A stretch of 64,000 nt of DNA from an uncultured Elusimicrobiales bacterium (GTDB taxonomy: Bacteria > Elusimicrobiota > Elusimicrobia > Elusimicrobiales > Elusimicrobiaceae). The notes beneath the pieces are model-generated. The model was given only the letters and a program-made list of their open reading frames with translations, was not told the DNA's origin and made no database searches. Shown piece after piece: positions 30,766 through 64,000 of this stretch (position 1 is the first letter of the stretch; the number at the start of each line of letters is the position of its first letter). The position numbers were made by a program, and so were the translations under genes. The DNA lies in contig CALUXE010000003.1 in NCBI GenBank assembly GCA_944324675.1, forward strand, positions 124,001-188,000, given 5' to 3'.

Positions 30766-31272
30766 TTATTTCAGCAGATAACCTTCCCCGGTTCTTGTCC
30801 AGCCGGAAGATTCCGCCACTTTATTAAAGACCTCCCCCCTGTCTCCCTGAGCCAAAACCACAAAGTATTTCCCCGCGCCGAATATTGTGCCCGAGGCATT
30901 GATGTTATATTTAAATACGAATTTGTACTCCTCGCCACTGCCTTTGCCGCAAACCATGATCACTGCCCTTTGCGAGGAATCTATCGACACTCTGCAAGAT
31001 CCGTCGTCGGAGGTGGCGGTAAGCCCGCTGACGCGATAGCTTGCCGGCAGGGAAACGGGCAGTTTCTTTAAGCTGTCCGGGAATTCGTCATTAAAACTAT
31101 AATATTGCAATGCCGAATCGTATATCGGTTTTAACACGCTCATATTGCTTGTTACTCTGGCTCTTTCAACCGAGACCGTATATTGCGGCAGAGCTATAGC
31201 CCCCAATATGCCTATTATCAGCACCACGACAAGAACTTCTAGCAAGGTAAAGCCTTTCCTGTTTTTTGACAT
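30766..31272 (-). CDS. Type IV pilin-like protein
   Basis: 168 residues with a class III signal: KNRKG followed by FTLLEVLVVVLIIGILGAIALP. Prepilin peptidase cuts after the glycine; the Glu at position 5 of the mature protein and the hydrophobic helix are present. The globular part has two cysteines (CRVSID, VMVCGKG) that could form a disulfide. It is a pilin or pseudopilin of a type IV pilus or type II secretion machine; no assembly genes are nearby. AAGGAG upstream of the ATG. Related in layout to the pilin at the right end of the window. Confidence 0.9.
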   Translation of the reverse strand: MSKNRKGFTLLEVLVVVLIIGILGAIALPQYTVSVERARVTSNMSVLKPIYDSALQYYSFNDEFPDSLKKLPVSLPASYRVSGLTATSDDGSCRVSIDSSQRAVIMVCGKGSGEEYKFVFKYNINASGTIFGAGKYFVVLAQGDRGEVFNKVAESSGWTRTGEGYLLK

Positions 31273-38937: not shown

Positions 38938-39599
38938 GAAAAATAAAAATAATTTCGGCTTTATTGCTGTGCTTTTCTTTGCAGAATGTTTTTGCCTATC
39001 AAGGTTTTGATGTAAACGGCGGATACGTTATGCCGATGGAAGTGTCTTTATACGGCGGCGCGGCGTTTTCCGATACGCAAAAGACTTGGCGCGGAAGAGA
39101 GGCCGATTTCGGCGGCAGCGGCTTTGTTTTGGGCACCACTCTTATGGGGCTGATAAACAATTATTTCAGCGTTGGTTTTGACTTTTCTTACATCAATTCG
39201 GGTTATGGCAAGAGTTTGGCTTTGCCGCTGGGCGATTTTGATTTTCGTATGGAACAATACAGGCCTATGCTGTTTACGAAGCTTTATCTTGTTTCGCCGG
39301 CATATTCCAGGTTTTCCTTATATGTCCCGCTTGGCGCGGGGCTGGACTTTGCCAGGATAAGCCAAAGGCAAAGCGGCGTTGAAGATAAAAAAGCCGATAC
39401 GCTTTCGGGTTTTGCTCTTTCGGCAGGCTTGGGCGCGGAATTTAATTTCGACAATAATACTTTTATCTCTTTTGAGGGGCGTTATAACTTCAGTTGGTAT
39501 CCCGGCTCAAACGATTATGATTTATCCTCGGCCAAAAGCGCATTTGCCGCTGTTAAGCTGGGCATAAGGTTCGACAGCGGATACGAATTTTTCTACTGA
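38934..39599 (+). CDS. Outer-membrane beta-barrel protein, OmpA/opacity-like
   Basis: 221 residues. Signal peptide MRKIKIISALLLCFSLQNVFA, followed by amphipathic strands (GFDFSYINSG, YVPLGAGLDFARIS, LSAGLGAEFNF, FEGRYNFSWY). The C-terminal strand ends GYEFFY, with an aromatic last residue as in BAM substrates. About eight strands would fit. Function unknown. Last gene of the phosphatase-mazG run, meeting the convergent ankyrin gene tail to tail with a 7-bp overlap. Confidence 0.82.
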   Translation: MRKIKIISALLLCFSLQNVFAYQGFDVNGGYVMPMEVSLYGGAAFSDTQKTWRGREADFGGSGFVLGTTLMGLINNYFSVGFDFSYINSGYGKSLALPLGDFDFRMEQYRPMLFTKLYLVSPAYSRFSLYVPLGAGLDFARISQRQSGVEDKKADTLSGFALSAGLGAEFNFDNNTFISFEGRYNFSWYPGSNDYDLSSAKSAFAAVKLGIRFDSGYEFFY

Positions 39600-41512
39600 T
39601 TATTGGCCTGCTGCGCCGGGACGGTAAAGAGTTTCTTCAGCAATTCGTAAACTTTTTTGTTCGGGTTGCCCTGCGCGTATTGGAGCAGGGCCCTTGTATC
39701 GGGTACGGTGGCGCCGCTTTGCAAAAGCAGGGCGGGTACTTTCTCGTTTGGATTTTTGTTTGTTGCGGCCATAATTATGCTTGTGCCGTTGTTATCCGTT
39801 GCGTTTACATCTGCGCCGGCGGAAATAAGGGCTTGTATTACCGGTAAATTTTTGTTTGTCAGAACGGCGGTCATCAGGGGCGTGTCGCCGTTATTGTTTG
39901 TGCCGTTTACGTCCGCGCCCGCCCGCACCAGGGCGTTTATCGGCTCCGCCGTTTTGCTGAACGCGGCCGCGAGCATAAGCGCGTTGATTTGGCCTTTCAT
40001 TAAGGCCTCAAGATTTAAATCTTTTTTAAGTTCTCGCTTAATGACGGCGGCATTGCCGCTTCTTATCGCCGAAACGAGCGCGGCGTTATTGAACCAGAGT
40101 GAACTGTCGTTAAGATTTTTTGGGTTTTTGCGTTCCTCAAATTCGGCGTTAAGCTGCTTGATTACGGCATTGTATACGTCTTGGTTTTGGTTTTGCGCAG
40201 CGAAATCCGCAACATGGCCGGTATCAAGTTTATTTTTGCTTTTTTCCATAAGGGCCAAAGTCACTTCCGGAACGGGATTGCTTGTCGCGGCGGTAAGAAG
40301 GGCGGTAAAACCCTGATTGTTTTTGGAATCGATATTGGCGTTATTTTCCAAAAGCAGGTTGATGATTTTGTCGTCCTTTGCGGTTGCCGCGGCCAAGATC
40401 AGGGGAGTATTGCCCCTTGCGTTTTTTAAGTTGATTTCCGCTCCGTTTTTAATCAGAAATTCTATCAATTTAGAGTCCTTGTTTTCCTCTATGAGTTTAA
40501 AAATCAGGGTAGATCCTTCCCTGTTATAACCGGCGTTAAGGTTGGCGCCGGCTTGTATGAGGGCTTTTATATTATCTAGTTTTTCGGGCTGATTCAAGGC
40601 GGCGGCCATTAGGGGCGTGGAGGCGTCTTTGGCGCGGATATTGGGGTCGGCCTTAACGGCTATTAAAGCTTTAAGCCACGCGCCGTCGCCGTCTTGCGCG
40701 GCTTTATAGAGCAAAGTTTTTCCGTCTTTATCCTGCGTATTTATGTTCACTCCGTTTTTTACGAAAAGGACGAGTTCCTCTATGTTTTTGTGTTCGCTTA
40801 AAAGCGAAGAAGCGTCCATTCCAGAGGCTTCATCTTTCGCGGTTAAATCCGTTTTTCTTACGGCTCTCATAAGTTTCTTAGTATCGCCCGATTGGAAAGC
40901 CGCTTTAAATTCCGCACTGTTGTACCACGGTATTTTTACCGTGTTTTCGATTTTCCCCATAAGCAGGAAGTTTATGTCCGCCTGCGTAAGATTGACGTTT
41001 TGGACAAGCGCCTGCCTGAAGGCGGGTTCGTTCCTGCCTTGCGCGCCCGCCTGCAAAAATAGCAATATTACATTTTTGTTTTTATTATTTTCGGCGGCCA
41101 GCATCAAGGGCGTTTTGCCGGAAGGGTCGGCCTGCTCTATGTCCGCGCCCGCCAGTATTATGGCTTTGGCGATATTGGGGTTGATATTGTTTTTCGCGGC
41201 AAGCATAAGGGCGTTATATCCTTGTTTGTTTACGGCGTTTGGGTCTATGCCGACGTCTATCAGTGTCTGGATAAGTTCGGCGTCGGTTGAGTACTGTACG
41301 GCCAAAGTAAGCGGGGTGTCGCCGTTTTTGTCTTGGCTTTTTACGTTTATGTTCGAGGTGTAAATATATCCGCTTACCGATTTGAAATCTGACAATTGTA
41401 AAGCCTTGAGGAAAGATTGGTTTTCATACCATTCATTGTTTTTCCCGCCGGAGGAGCAGGCCGCCCCAAAAAAAGATGATAAAATCAGACAGATAAACAA
41501 AAAATGTTTCAT
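39593..41512 (-). CDS. Ankyrin-repeat lipoprotein
   Basis: 639 residues. Lipoprotein signal peptide (MKHFLFICLILSSFFGAAC, lipobox GAAC before Ser). The mature part is almost entirely ankyrin repeats, a dozen or more, with lines such as NGDTPLTLAVQ, QGYNALMLAAKNN, SGKTPLMLAAENN, DGKTLLYKAAQDG, RGNTPLILAAATA and NNGDTPLMTAVLTN. It should be exported and lipid-anchored, where repeats mediate protein contacts. Partner unknown. AGAGG precedes the ATG. It is related in type to the broken ankyrin gene at 26 kb. Ankyrin-rich proteins are common in host-associated bacteria, but that alone is not proof of lifestyle. Confidence 0.88.
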   Translation of the reverse strand: MKHFLFICLILSSFFGAACSSGGKNNEWYENQSFLKALQLSDFKSVSGYIYTSNINVKSQDKNGDTPLTLAVQYSTDAELIQTLIDVGIDPNAVNKQGYNALMLAAKNNINPNIAKAIILAGADIEQADPSGKTPLMLAAENNKNKNVILLFLQAGAQGRNEPAFRQALVQNVNLTQADINFLLMGKIENTVKIPWYNSAEFKAAFQSGDTKKLMRAVRKTDLTAKDEASGMDASSLLSEHKNIEELVLFVKNGVNINTQDKDGKTLLYKAAQDGDGAWLKALIAVKADPNIRAKDASTPLMAAALNQPEKLDNIKALIQAGANLNAGYNREGSTLIFKLIEENKDSKLIEFLIKNGAEINLKNARGNTPLILAAATAKDDKIINLLLENNANIDSKNNQGFTALLTAATSNPVPEVTLALMEKSKNKLDTGHVADFAAQNQNQDVYNAVIKQLNAEFEERKNPKNLNDSSLWFNNAALVSAIRSGNAAVIKRELKKDLNLEALMKGQINALMLAAAFSKTAEPINALVRAGADVNGTNNNGDTPLMTAVLTNKNLPVIQALISAGADVNATDNNGTSIIMAATNKNPNEKVPALLLQSGATVPDTRALLQYAQGNPNKKVYELLKKLFTVPAQQANNQ

Positions 41513-41523
41513 ATAGAACCTCT

Positions 41524-42591
41524 TTATTGTATTATGCCGCCGCCCAAGACGGTATCTCCGTCGTAAAACACCGCGCTTTGCCCGGCGGTAATCGACATTT
41601 GCGGTTCGTCAAAAATTACCCGCGCCTTGTCTTCCCCCAAAGGCTTTACGGAAGCCAAAGCAGGGATATGCTGGCGCCTTATTTTTACCATAGCTTTAAA
41701 CTCTCCCTGCGGCTTTCGCACCGAACACCAACTAACCAAAGCTGCGGTTAATCCGTCGGAGAATAAATCTTCCTTAAAGCCCGCCACTATTTGATTGTTT
41801 TTGGCGTCTATTTTAATTACGTATAAAGGCTTTTGGCTGCCGCCGCCGGTAAGCCCCTTTCTTTTGCCGATGGTGTAATTCCATATTCCGTTGTGCGTAC
41901 CGATAACTTTGCCCGTTTTATCCACTATTTTGCCGGGCTTGGGAGGGAATTTTAAAATATCGTTATAATCCCCGCAGTAGAAATCTTGGCTGTCGGCCTT
42001 ATCGGCTACGGGCAAAGCGTATTTTAAAGCCATTTCGCGCACCTCTTTTTTTGTATAGGCGCCGAGCGGGAATAAAATTTTCGCAAGCTGCTCTTGGCCC
42101 AACCGGTAAAGGAAATAGCTTTGGTCCTTGGTTTCATCTTTGCCCTTTTTCAGTTGCCACAGGTCGGCTTTCGGGTCGAATTCTATGATAGAATAATGGC
42201 CTGTGGCGAACTTGTCGAAATCGATACCGTTTTGTCTTGCGGCATTGGGCAAAGCGCCGAATTTAACGTAACTGTTGCACCATACACAGGGATTGGGCGT
42301 CCTGCCAAGGCGGTATTCGTCCTTAAAATTGCCCAGCACGATGTTTTTGTATTGTTCGCGGCAATCTATAACTTTAAGCGGGATTTTGAGGAAATCGGCT
42401 ACTTTCTGGGCTGTGGCGATATCGTTTTCCTCCGGGCCGAGGCAGGCTTTATTGGGCACCTTGGGCGCAGGCATGGATTCGTCCCAAATGGACATAATCG
42501 CGCCAATGACTTCATAACCTTGCTCTTTAAGCAGCAAAGCCGCCATAGCCGAATCTACGCCCCCGCTTAAACCCACCAATACTTTTTGCAT
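41524..42591 (-). CDS. mnmA: tRNA-specific 2-thiouridylase MnmA
   Basis: Thiolates U34 of Lys, Glu and Gln tRNAs. The PP-loop is LSGGVDSAMAALLL. The nucleophilic cysteines lie in NPCVWCNSYVKFG and SQDFYCGDY. 355 residues, as usual. Sulfur would come from a cysteine desulfurase such as the one at the left edge. Start choice: the ATG lies six bases after TAGAAT with an upstream TG (extended -10) and no Shine-Dalgarno, which suggests a leaderless mRNA. Confidence 0.96.
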   Translation of the reverse strand: MQKVLVGLSGGVDSAMAALLLKEQGYEVIGAIMSIWDESMPAPKVPNKACLGPEENDIATAQKVADFLKIPLKVIDCREQYKNIVLGNFKDEYRLGRTPNPCVWCNSYVKFGALPNAARQNGIDFDKFATGHYSIIEFDPKADLWQLKKGKDETKDQSYFLYRLGQEQLAKILFPLGAYTKKEVREMALKYALPVADKADSQDFYCGDYNDILKFPPKPGKIVDKTGKVIGTHNGIWNYTIGKRKGLTGGGSQKPLYVIKIDAKNNQIVAGFKEDLFSDGLTAALVSWCSVRKPQGEFKAMVKIRRQHIPALASVKPLGEDKARVIFDEPQMSITAGQSAVFYDGDTVLGGGIIQ

Positions 42592-42606: not shown

Positions 42607-43629
42607 TTAAAGCATGTTTGTTAGCTCATTAAAAACAAGTTCTGGTTTAAGGTTTACTAAACATGGCGCAGTAACCGGGTTGCAAATTGTTTTATCACAA
42701 TATAAGCAATCAAGGCCTTGTGCACTTACAAGACGGTGCTTGGGGTTGCCGGAGGGATGCCAAGTGTTAGGATTTGTGATTGTTTGTATTGTAATTGTAG
42801 GCACGTCAAGAGCTATTGCTATATGTTTTGTGCCGGTGCATACGGTTACGGCTAAATTGAGGAAACTGATATAAGAGGAAAGTTGAGTTAAATTCTCACA
42901 TTGCGGTATAAAAATATTTTTTACATCACGCGGACACATTCTTTTTGCAAAATCCTGTCCGTTTTTGTCAATAAATATGAAAATCTTAGCTTTTGCGGAA
43001 TATTTTTGAATGATCAGCTCTGCAAGCCGTTTCCAGCTTTCTGCCGGCCACATTTTTAATGGATGTGAACCTTGCGGTACAAAACCTATAAGAAGATTAT
43101 CCGAAGAGATGTTATATTTTTTAAAAAAGGCTTTTTTTATATCATGAATATCAGGGGGGAGAATCAAAGTCATTTTGGGAAAAGTTTTTACTTTCTTAAA
43201 TAGAATTCCTTCTAAGAATTTTATCTGTCTGTTAGCCGCATAAGTTTGGTTAGTAGCGTAATAGTCCGGTCGTATATTATAAATGCGGTGATATAGTTTT
43301 GGCCTTAAGAAGTAACCTCTTATTTTGTTTTCGCATTTGCTTAAAGCGCAAATAAGGGCGGTTTTTTCAGTGGGATATAAATCTATTATAAAATCATACC
43401 TTTTCTTCCTTATTTCCGATATCAATTTTAACCACGGAGTTTTATTTATTATGTAGATTTTGTTTATATCAGGGTTCCTTTCCAGTATTTCTGAAGCGGG
43501 ATATTTAGCCAAGAAGTCTATATCGGCGTTTGAAAGTTCTTCTTTTATTGCGCTTAGAAGCGGCGTGCATAGTAGGGTGTCGCCTATCTTTTTTGTCATT
43601 ATGACAAGTATTTTCAACGGTTTTTGCAT
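42607..43629 (-). CDS. Glycosyltransferase family 9 (heptosyltransferase-like)
   Basis: 340 residues. Family 9 features: ILVIMTKKIGDTLLCTPLLSA at the N-terminus (the KIGD start typical of heptosyltransferases), FVPQGSHPLKMWPAESWKRLAEL in the C-domain and CTGTKHIAIAL followed by a threonine-rich stretch. Likely adds a sugar to LPS or a related glycan. Composition is Lys/Ile/Asn-rich and clearly more AT-rich than its neighbours; no other LPS gene is next to it. Together with the odd noncoding stretch upstream, this suggests acquisition by transfer. AATGGAG precedes the ATG. Confidence 0.87.
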   Translation of the reverse strand: MQKPLKILVIMTKKIGDTLLCTPLLSAIKEELSNADIDFLAKYPASEILERNPDINKIYIINKTPWLKLISEIRKKRYDFIIDLYPTEKTALICALSKCENKIRGYFLRPKLYHRIYNIRPDYYATNQTYAANRQIKFLEGILFKKVKTFPKMTLILPPDIHDIKKAFFKKYNISSDNLLIGFVPQGSHPLKMWPAESWKRLAELIIQKYSAKAKIFIFIDKNGQDFAKRMCPRDVKNIFIPQCENLTQLSSYISFLNLAVTVCTGTKHIAIALDVPTITIQTITNPNTWHPSGNPKHRLVSAQGLDCLYCDKTICNPVTAPCLVNLKPELVFNELTNML

Positions 43630-43643
43630 TATTTACTCCATTG

Positions 43644-43777
43644 TTTAGTAACGGAATAAATTTTTGCCAATAAACAAACCTCTCCCGTAAAGAGGCGTGT
43701 AAATGCACAATTATATTTAGTTCCGTTAGGATCGCCTTTTACGGCGATACTCTATATGCGTGACATATAGTCCTAAA
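43644..43777. ncRNA. Structured element, copy 1 (three-way junction)
   Basis: Downstream part, 43726-43776: TTAGG pairs with CCTAA and closes a junction with two hairpins, ATCGCC/GGCGAT (6 bp) and CTATATG/CATATAG (7 bp), joined by ACT. Upstream part: TAACGGAA (43649-43656) can pair with TTCCGTTA (43721-43728), and a CCTCT/AGAGG hairpin lies between. The same plan recurs 183 bp away with different stem sequences. Whether it works as RNA or as folded DNA, and on which strand, is unknown. It does not match a riboswitch I know. Confidence 0.55.
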
Positions 43778-43815
43778 GTAATTGTTGTATTGTTGAGGCT
43801 GAACATTGAGGGTAT

Positions 43816-43864
43816 AAAAAAGCGATGGTATATCAGCCTAACGGAGTACCAATAAAACCATCGC
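43816..43864 (-). terminator. Terminator-like hairpin on the minus strand
   Basis: Read on the minus strand, GCGATGGT/ACCATCGC (8 bp, 27-nt loop) is followed at once by six T (43821-43816). This would end a minus-strand transcript crossing copy 2, for instance one from the TATAAT at 44041-44046. The long loop makes it a weaker terminator than others here. Confidence 0.45.
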
Positions 43865-43959
43865 CCCCTGTATAAATACAGGGAAAGCAATGATTATTCT
43901 TAGTTCCGTTAGGCTTTTACTTGCGTAAAAGACTCTATACCCTTCAGTATAGCCCTAAA
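43822..43959. ncRNA. Structured element, copy 2 (three-way junction)
   Basis: Junction part, 43909-43958: TTAGG/CCTAA closes two hairpins, CTTTTAC/GTAAAAG (7 bp) and CTATAC/GTATAG (6 bp), joined by ACT exactly as in copy 1. Upstream, GCCTAACGGA (43836-43845) is complementary to TCCGTTAGGC (43905-43914), with a CCCTGTAT/ATACAGGG hairpin between. In addition GCGATGGT (43822-43829) pairs with ACCATCGC (43857-43864). Stems that differ between copies but remain paired argue for selection on structure. Confidence 0.55.
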
Positions 43960-44136
43960 AACAATCTGAAATTATTTAAAATCTGTTAATGTTTGTCGCC
44001 TATAGCCTCCGGCAATAATTTGTATTTTTAATACGGAAATATTATAATAAATTAAGAAGCAGCGATGCTTCAAAATCAGAAAGAGCCGGCCTTGCGCTTT
44101 GCAGTAAAAGCGCAAATGGCTATTTTCCGCTTTTTT

Positions 44137-44151: not shown

Positions 44152-44460
44152 ATGTATTCAATAATAGAAACAGGTGGAAAACAGTACTGGGTAACCCCCG
44201 GTCAAAATCTGCAGGTTGAAAAACTGGAAGCTGAGGTCGGTTCTACCGTAGAGCTTAAAGCTCTGTGGGCGGCTGAAGCGGAAGGTACCTCGTCAGATGC
44301 CAAGGCGGCGAAAACCGCCAAGGTCACCGCGGAAGTCGTAAGACATTTGCGCGGTCGCAAGATTATTGTTTTCAAGAAAAGACCCAAAAAAGGTTACGAA
44401 AGGACCATGGGCCACAGACAAAATCTTACAGAAATCAAGATTAAAGAAATAATCTTATAA
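44152..44460 (+). CDS. rplU: 50S ribosomal protein L21
   Basis: 102 residues, beginning [20 protein letters not shown] and ending with the RNA-binding [16 protein letters not shown]. Standard L21. The middle has a small Ala/Lys-rich stretch typical of variation in this region. First gene of rplU-rpmA, and obgE follows after two lipoprotein genes. No ribosome-binding site is visible before its ATG, unlike rpmA. Confidence 0.97.
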
Positions 44461-63656: not shown

Positions 63657-64000
63657 ATGTCAAAGAAGAAAGGTTTTACTCTTATAGAGATGTTGGTAGT
63701 GGTGCTGATAATCGGGATAATTGCGGCGATAGCCTTCCCGCAGTATCAGAAGGCGGTTTTAAAAAGCCGTTTTGCTTTAGCGCAAATCACTGCCCGTAAT
63801 ATGTATGACGCCCTGCAGAGTTATTATATGGCTAACGGGAAATATCCGGCCGAATTGAATGAATTGGATATTTCTTTTCCCGGGGGTAGTTATGTAAACG
63901 ATGATACTCTATCTTTTAAAAAATATACTTGCACTTACTTCCCGATAGGGGCTCCTTCCGTTTTACCCTCGGTGTATTGCACGGTGCCTGTTTATGGGAT
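63657..64000 (+). CDS. Type IV pilin (3' end outside window)
   Basis: Open to the window edge; 114 residues visible. Class III signal SKKKG followed by FTLIEMLVVVLIIGIIAAIAFP; cleavage after Gly, Glu5 present. Then ALAQITARNMYDALQSYYMANGKYP, typical of pilin helices, and cysteines (YTCTYF, VYCTVP) that may form a disulfide. AGGAGCAGGGG precedes the ATG. Compared with the pilin at 30.8 kb it has the same layout but a different globular part. Pilin versus pseudopilin is not decidable here. Confidence 0.9.
   Translation, partial: MSKKKGFTLIEMLVVVLIIGIIAAIAFPQYQKAVLKSRFALAQITARNMYDALQSYYMANGKYPAELNELDISFPGGSYVNDDTLSFKKYTCTYFPIGAPSVLPSVYCTVPVYG

Follow-up and report, generated by a model that had tools for sequence, protein, structure and literature searches.

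A 64,000-nt stretch of an uncultured Elusimicrobiales genome (contig CALUXE010000003.1, positions 124,001 to 188,000; hereafter the window) carries two tandem copies of a structured RNA element of roughly 120–200 nt in the leader of a gene for a GT9 family glycosyltransferase. Comparison with its homologs makes it likely, in our judgment, that this element represents a previously uncatalogued, riboswitch-like family of cis-acting attenuation switches in which two helices, P4 and P5, would act as antiterminator. In each unit, a helix termed P1 encloses hairpins P2 and P3 together with the 5′ arm of P4, and the 3′ arm of P4 lies downstream; P4 crosses P1 and is therefore a pseudoknot.

Covariance Searches Define the Fold and the Family

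The first-pass annotation, which read the plus strand, had described two elements in the region between the GT9 gene (42607–43629, minus strand) and rplU (44152–44460, plus strand). Both exist letter for letter: TTAGG, ATCGCC..GGCGAT, ACT, CTATATG..CATATAG, T, and CCTAA in its copy 1, and TTAGG, CTTTTAC..GTAAAAG, ACT, CTATAC..GTATAG, C, and CCTAA in its copy 2. The arms it had noted in addition, TCCGTTAGG and TAACGGA, lie at 43905–43913 and 43837–43845 in copy 2 and at 43721–43728 and 43649–43656 in copy 1. Below, copy A denotes its copy 2, which comes first in the minus-strand RNA, and copy B its copy 1.

The locus is kept in two more genomes of the genus (100% and 96% identity). Plain DNA similarity reaches this orthologous locus only and no other family copies; exact matches to the motif CCTAACGGAACTAA beyond G000, G001, and G017 are due to chance. 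A covariance model built from the window copies and their orthologs, with TTAGG/CCTAA as closing stem (R1), recovered faint but genuine relatives at unlinked loci, all with a terminator and then a gene downstream—pilins at L044 and L045, GT8 glycosyltransferases at L047 and L071. Two further R1 matches fall outside the family (L046, within coding sequence, and L048). The homologs have common features that R1 does not contain: P1 joins a GAUU.UUUU.GG strand near the 5′ end to a strand beyond the TAACGGA arm, its conserved UUUAG pairing with CUAA..AUAAU 3′ of that arm; TAACGGA/TCCGTTA are the arms of P4, and CCTAA is part of P4. Because the homologs placed P1 pairing further 3′, the TTAGG/CCTAA closing stem was rejected, and the three-way junction of the first-pass annotation gives way to a pseudoknotted P1–P4 fold on the minus strand.

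A model of the core P1–P2–P3 only (R2) identified about 100 copies in 39 relatives and further copies across the family; with its successor R3, 103 of 341 Elusimicrobiota genomes proved to contain members. Neither model included P4. Members occur in 82 of the 90 genomes of the window's own family (f1), in 18 of f21 (another class), in one of f2, and weakly in two elsewhere. The distant, host-associated-looking f21 lineage (G312, G318) holds many copies, and f2 is nearly without them. The largest number in one genome is 29 places, in G318, among which are a few antisense or overlapping matches. The window's own genome has six: the two window copies and leaders of genes for a GT8 glycosyltransferase (L121), a zinc-ribbon protein (L122), a pilin (L334), and a small lipoprotein-like product (L335). 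Filters were stricter in the family-wide and phylum-wide searches, so that a genome may hold more copies than counted; almost all of the genomes were assembled from metagenomes, and model E-values are rough.

Within these searches, the family was met solely in Elusimicrobiota. Four IMG/VR pattern matches and a Eubacterium contig, considered as signs of phage origin, were without P4 or terminator and look like chance inverted repeats. No Rfam family reached its gathering threshold in the window or at 13 loci, permissive scans (E ≤ 5–10) gave no meaningful match, and neither a tRNA nor a transfer-messenger RNA was found in the window element. In the open-access literature, we found no description of an RNA of this kind from Elusimicrobia. 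The covariance-model search that the first-pass annotation had proposed thus returned further copies and no Rfam match; its idea of a new noncoding RNA survives as an RNA element absent from Rfam, with the meaningful strand being the minus strand.

Covariation and a Private Pseudoknot

Selection on structure, which the first-pass annotation had read from paired changes between the two copies, is borne out by the covariance-model homologs and by P1–P3 covariation. Both sides have changed at 18 of 24 pairs, and cells with a change on each side number 327, whereas shuffles give 76; 92% of cells are paired, compared with 40–53% in slid structures. All of these figures come from an alignment that had been fitted to the structure, which calls for caution. 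P1 is conserved, with compensatory changes, across 94 copies. P2 is paired in 99.8% of cells, with both-side changes at 6/6 pairs, and P3 in 97.3%, where all six pairs covary; conserved unpaired bases are few.

The long-range pairing of TCCGTTAGG with TAACGGA proved real. When the 10-nt segment between P3 and the P1 3′ strand was scored for a partner, one was present in every one of the 93 testable first-set copies: 8–11 perfect base pairs, no more than 150 nt away. Scores averaged 23.6, whereas partners borrowed from other copies averaged 13.1; among these controls, 4% attain the lowest class observed. A second set that includes f21 passed in 57 of 61 testable matches, the threshold being missed by L362, L310:1501, L325, and L356. 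P4 is also largely private to each copy: The 93 copies carry 77 distinct P4 5′ arms, compared with 26 for P2 and 48 for P3. Two near-identical GT8 leaders, L121 (G000) and L071 (G001), differ at three adjacent P4 pairs, all fully compensated (CACGCUAA/UUAGCGUG and CACUCGAA/UUCGAGUG).

The Two Window Copies

The element is the 5′ leader of a GT9–mnmA–ankyrin gene cluster on the minus strand. Minus-strand RNA folds with z = −9.5 (0/100 shuffles equally good), compared with z = −6.25 for the plus strand. Copy A comprises the following features:

43955–43966, minus strand: P1 5′ strand GAUUGUUUUUAG, near the RNA 5′ end; 12 pairs with 43892–43903
43935–43952, minus strand: hairpin P2, CUAUAC..GUAUAG (hairpin 2 of the first-pass annotation)
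43914–43931, minus strand: hairpin P3, CUUUUAC..GUAAAAG (its hairpin 1)
43905–43913, minus strand: P4 5′ strand CCUAACGGA; nine perfect pairs with 43837–43845
43892–43903, minus strand: P1 3′ strand CUAAGAAUAAUC, overlapping at its end with the P5 5′ strand
43887–43895, minus strand: P5 5′ strand AAUCAUUGC, candidate antiterminator; pairs with GGCGAUGGUU at 43856–43865
43866–43883, minus strand: hairpin P6 CCCUGUAUUUAUACAGGG, short subtype, from folding
43816–43865, minus strand: intrinsic terminator, a hairpin of −17.7 kcal/mol followed by TTTTTT; the 5′ arm GGCGAUGG is the P5 3′ strand, the 3′ arm ACCAUCGC lies at 43822–43829, and U6 at 43816–43821
43837–43845, minus strand: P4 3′ strand UCCGUUAGG, within the terminator loop

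Copy B follows downstream:

43773–43784, minus strand: P1 5′ strand CAAUUACUUUAG; pairs with 43708–43720 with one small internal loop
43752–43770, minus strand: hairpin P2, CUAUAUG..CAUAUAG
43731–43748, minus strand: hairpin P3, AUCGCC..GGCGAU
43721–43728, minus strand: P4 5′ strand UAACGGAA; eight perfect pairs with 43649–43656
43708–43720, minus strand: P1 3′ strand CUAAAUAUAAUUG
43649–43656, minus strand: P4 3′ strand UUCCGUUA, whose UUCC doubles as an anti-Shine–Dalgarno (SD) sequence
43631–43661, minus strand: SD-hiding hairpin, 9 bp, AUUUAUUCC/GGAGUAAAU, −10.4 kcal/mol, conserved in G017

The SD-hiding hairpin and P4 of copy B are mutually exclusive, UUCC being common to both. The genes that follow are:

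42607–43629, minus strand: GT9 family glycosyltransferase (heptosyltransferase), the regulated gene (PF01075, E = 1.8e-16); start codon at 43627–43629 and SD GGAG at 43636–43639
41524–42591, minus strand: mnmA, tRNA 2-thiouridylase (PF03054, E = 2.3e-65), 15 bp after GT9 and probably on the same transcript
39593–41512, minus strand: lipoprotein-like ankyrin-repeat protein of 639 aa, 11 bp past mnmA and probably cotranscribed with GT9

Wiring to Terminator, Promoter, and Ribosome-Binding Site

The wiring seen in copy A recurs across the family. A U-tract lies within 45 nt of the P4 3′ strand in 135 of 142 unique copies, and the terminator stem score is at least 20 in 98%, against 13% of shuffles. 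The P4 3′ strand sits in the terminator loop; the P5 3′ arm overlaps the terminator 5′ arm in 126/142 copies, and the P5 5′ arm overlaps the P1 3′ strand in 135/142. At the other end, −10-like hexamers peak 6–8 nt upstream of the core, which would place the transcript 5′ end at about the P1 5′ strand. Downstream of 124 copies lies a same-strand gene with an SD, mostly 50–150 nt past the P4 3′ strand and typically at about 60 nt; the start codon is usually 50–100 nt downstream. Between terminator and start codon, 29% have an SD-hiding hairpin scoring at least 18 (5% in shuffles), and in about 41% a second P1-3′-like strand, UUCCAAAAACAG, lies near the SD past the terminator (4% in shuffles); this strand could let the P1 5′ strand, at the RNA 5′ end, open the SD hairpin. 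A co-oriented leader upstream of a gene, with a terminator exclusive with an alternative helix, is the arrangement of an attenuator.

The same flanks, a −10-like promoter and a terminator, would also suit a stand-alone small RNA gene that lies upstream of other genes by accident. We hold this to be improbable: The element is nearly always co-oriented with an SD-preceded gene, typically at that short spacing; P5 and the terminator have an arm in common, and P4 uses the terminator loop; SD hairpins and distal P1-like sites belong to the wiring; and window copy B has no terminator.

A mobile repeat dispersed upstream of genes—a repetitive extragenic palindrome (REP), a miniature inverted-repeat transposable element (MITE), or a cassette recombination site—would account for many copies per genome, for accessory targets such as methylases, and for the P1-like inverted repeat that returns near the SD in about 40%. 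The REP/MITE or folded-DNA origin offered by the first-pass annotation does not fit copies that are diverged even within a genome, have a private P4, stand in fixed relation and orientation to genes, and in many cases have a −10-like element on one side and in nearly all a terminator on the other. Search scores are strand-biased as well: Sense matches score above antisense ones, and P4 with terminator occurs in sense copies only. Dispersal as a mobile repeat is, on this evidence, very unlikely. A plus-strand or DNA-level reading was likewise rejected, as it is the minus strand that folds better and carries the promoter, terminator, and SD logic; for an integron attC or other folded DNA site, the terminator, −10, and SD wiring speak against it, no direct search having been made.

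Loop sequences bear on two further explanations. Among P2 loops of five nucleotides, 50 of 56 read GNRGA, a pentaloop that may serve for protein binding or a tertiary contact. The loop of lambda boxB is GAAGA, which the P2 loops resemble, and EAR acts at surface polysaccharide genes; targets here are surface polysaccharide and pilus genes. The element might be a processive-antitermination RNA of the EAR, put, or nut kind, a constitutive fold whose target is RNA polymerase, reached either by direct contact or by way of a protein bound at P2. However, each copy comes with a terminator that overlaps P5 and P4, as expected of a switch that works locally and not of one that signals to distant terminators, and there is no Rfam EAR match; we consider this explanation unlikely.

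In the long subtype, P6 has loops of 9–11 nt, a form absent from the short copies of the window. Palindromes of 4 nt or more occur in 92% of these loops and of 6 nt in 52%, compared with 30% and 6% for P7 loops and 58% and 17% for shuffles of the same composition. Palindromes at L149, L045, L131, and other long-subtype loci include UAAUUA, UUAUAA, UCAUGA, UUCGAA, CUCGAG, UUGCAA, GAUC, and AGCU. Because differing palindromes occupy one place, a kissing-loop contact between RNA molecules, as in retroviral dimer-initiation sites, suggests itself as a lead. That the family is a new class of switch working by RNA–RNA contact, with leaders dimerizing or competing so that few pilin genes are expressed at once, seems to us unlikely.

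A Proposed Attenuation Model with P4 and P5 as Antiterminator

The preferred reading, a cis-acting attenuation switch, builds on features present in the sequence itself: leader position, P1–P4, the P5/terminator overlap, the terminator, the SD hairpin, and the target genes. We infer from their arrangement that P4/P5 would be the ON state and that the fold may answer a signal, whether a metabolite such as cyclic di-GMP (c-di-GMP), a protein, or a temperature or ion cue. Transcription would start at or near the P1 5′ strand. If P4 and P5 form first, the terminator loop and ascending arm would be held and RNA polymerase would read through; if P1 stays intact, or if P4 formation is blocked, the terminator would form and expression would be OFF. 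Some signal would shift the balance between P4/P5 and whole P1 plus terminator. In the window, copy A would act at the level of transcription, through its terminator, and P4 formation in copy B would sequester the anti-SD UUCC and free the ribosome site for translation. Two like sensors would thus stand in series, resembling tandem riboswitches.

Several points weigh against this model. Copy B is without a terminator, and its P1 is imperfect; P4, terminator, and SD hairpins were scored with simple ungapped or local duplex scores; the direction of switching is deduced from the fold and may be otherwise; the mixed regulon suggests no single ligand; and ordinary attenuation without any sensed signal is an alternative. 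The structured domain has the covariation and pseudoknot of a riboswitch aptamer; we do not count the element among the riboswitches, which are defined by direct binding of a small ligand.

Targets and Relation to Known Systems

Type IV pilin N-terminal (N_methyl) motifs occur in 67 of 113 downstream proteins. The remaining targets include GT8, GT9, and GT61 glycosyltransferases, sulfatase, outer-membrane beta-barrel, and TM2/zinc-ribbon proteins, and EcoRI-type methylases. Because ten genomes hold from 7 to at least 150 pilin-motif matches each (39 in the window's genome), the leader marks a subset of pilins. Two such motifs in the window itself, at 31189–31266 (minus strand) and 63657–63737 (plus strand), are without the leader.

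GGDEF proteins are present in 10/10 tested genomes, so a c-di-GMP signal is possible. Together with the pilin-rich regulon, this would suit a divergent representative of one of the known riboswitch classes; the c-di-GMP-I riboswitch (GEMM, RF01051) is known at pilin and surface genes, sometimes in tandem. It has a different junction, and the new RNA shows no conserved GEMM core and no covariance match in the window or in family members. An RF01051 search found nothing in ten genomes, a weak negative, as control genomes were equally silent. With no meaningful match to any Rfam class at the window or the 13 loci, even permissively, such membership is very unlikely.

The closest parallels are pseudoknotted terminator riboswitches (preQ1, ZTP, fluoride, and c-di-GMP-II), which likewise have a 5′ leader, a pseudoknot, a terminator arm common to an alternative helix, tandem copies in one leader, and a second control at the SD. 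The new RNA differs in that P4 links the upstream fold to the terminator's own loop and has no conserved sequence, in the lack of an Rfam match, and in its restriction to Elusimicrobiota within these searches. EAR (RF01735) and put/nut RNAs share the position in surface-structure operon leaders and a pseudoknot or boxB-like pentaloop; unlike them, the new RNA has a terminator built into its fold, and neither sequence nor model matches. The L21 leader of the neighboring rplU would occupy the same intergenic region, but the element lies on the opposite strand, folds on the GT9 strand, and recurs at genes unrelated to rplU.

The element adds a large RNA family—103 genomes, up to 29 copies—with a strongly supported pseudoknot, and it would couple the termination of transcription to translation in a phylum where hardly any RNA regulation is known. 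As an orphan switch, it is one whose ligand or partner can be sought directly, and it may help to explain how gut Elusimicrobiota select from sets of dozens to over 100 pilin genes.
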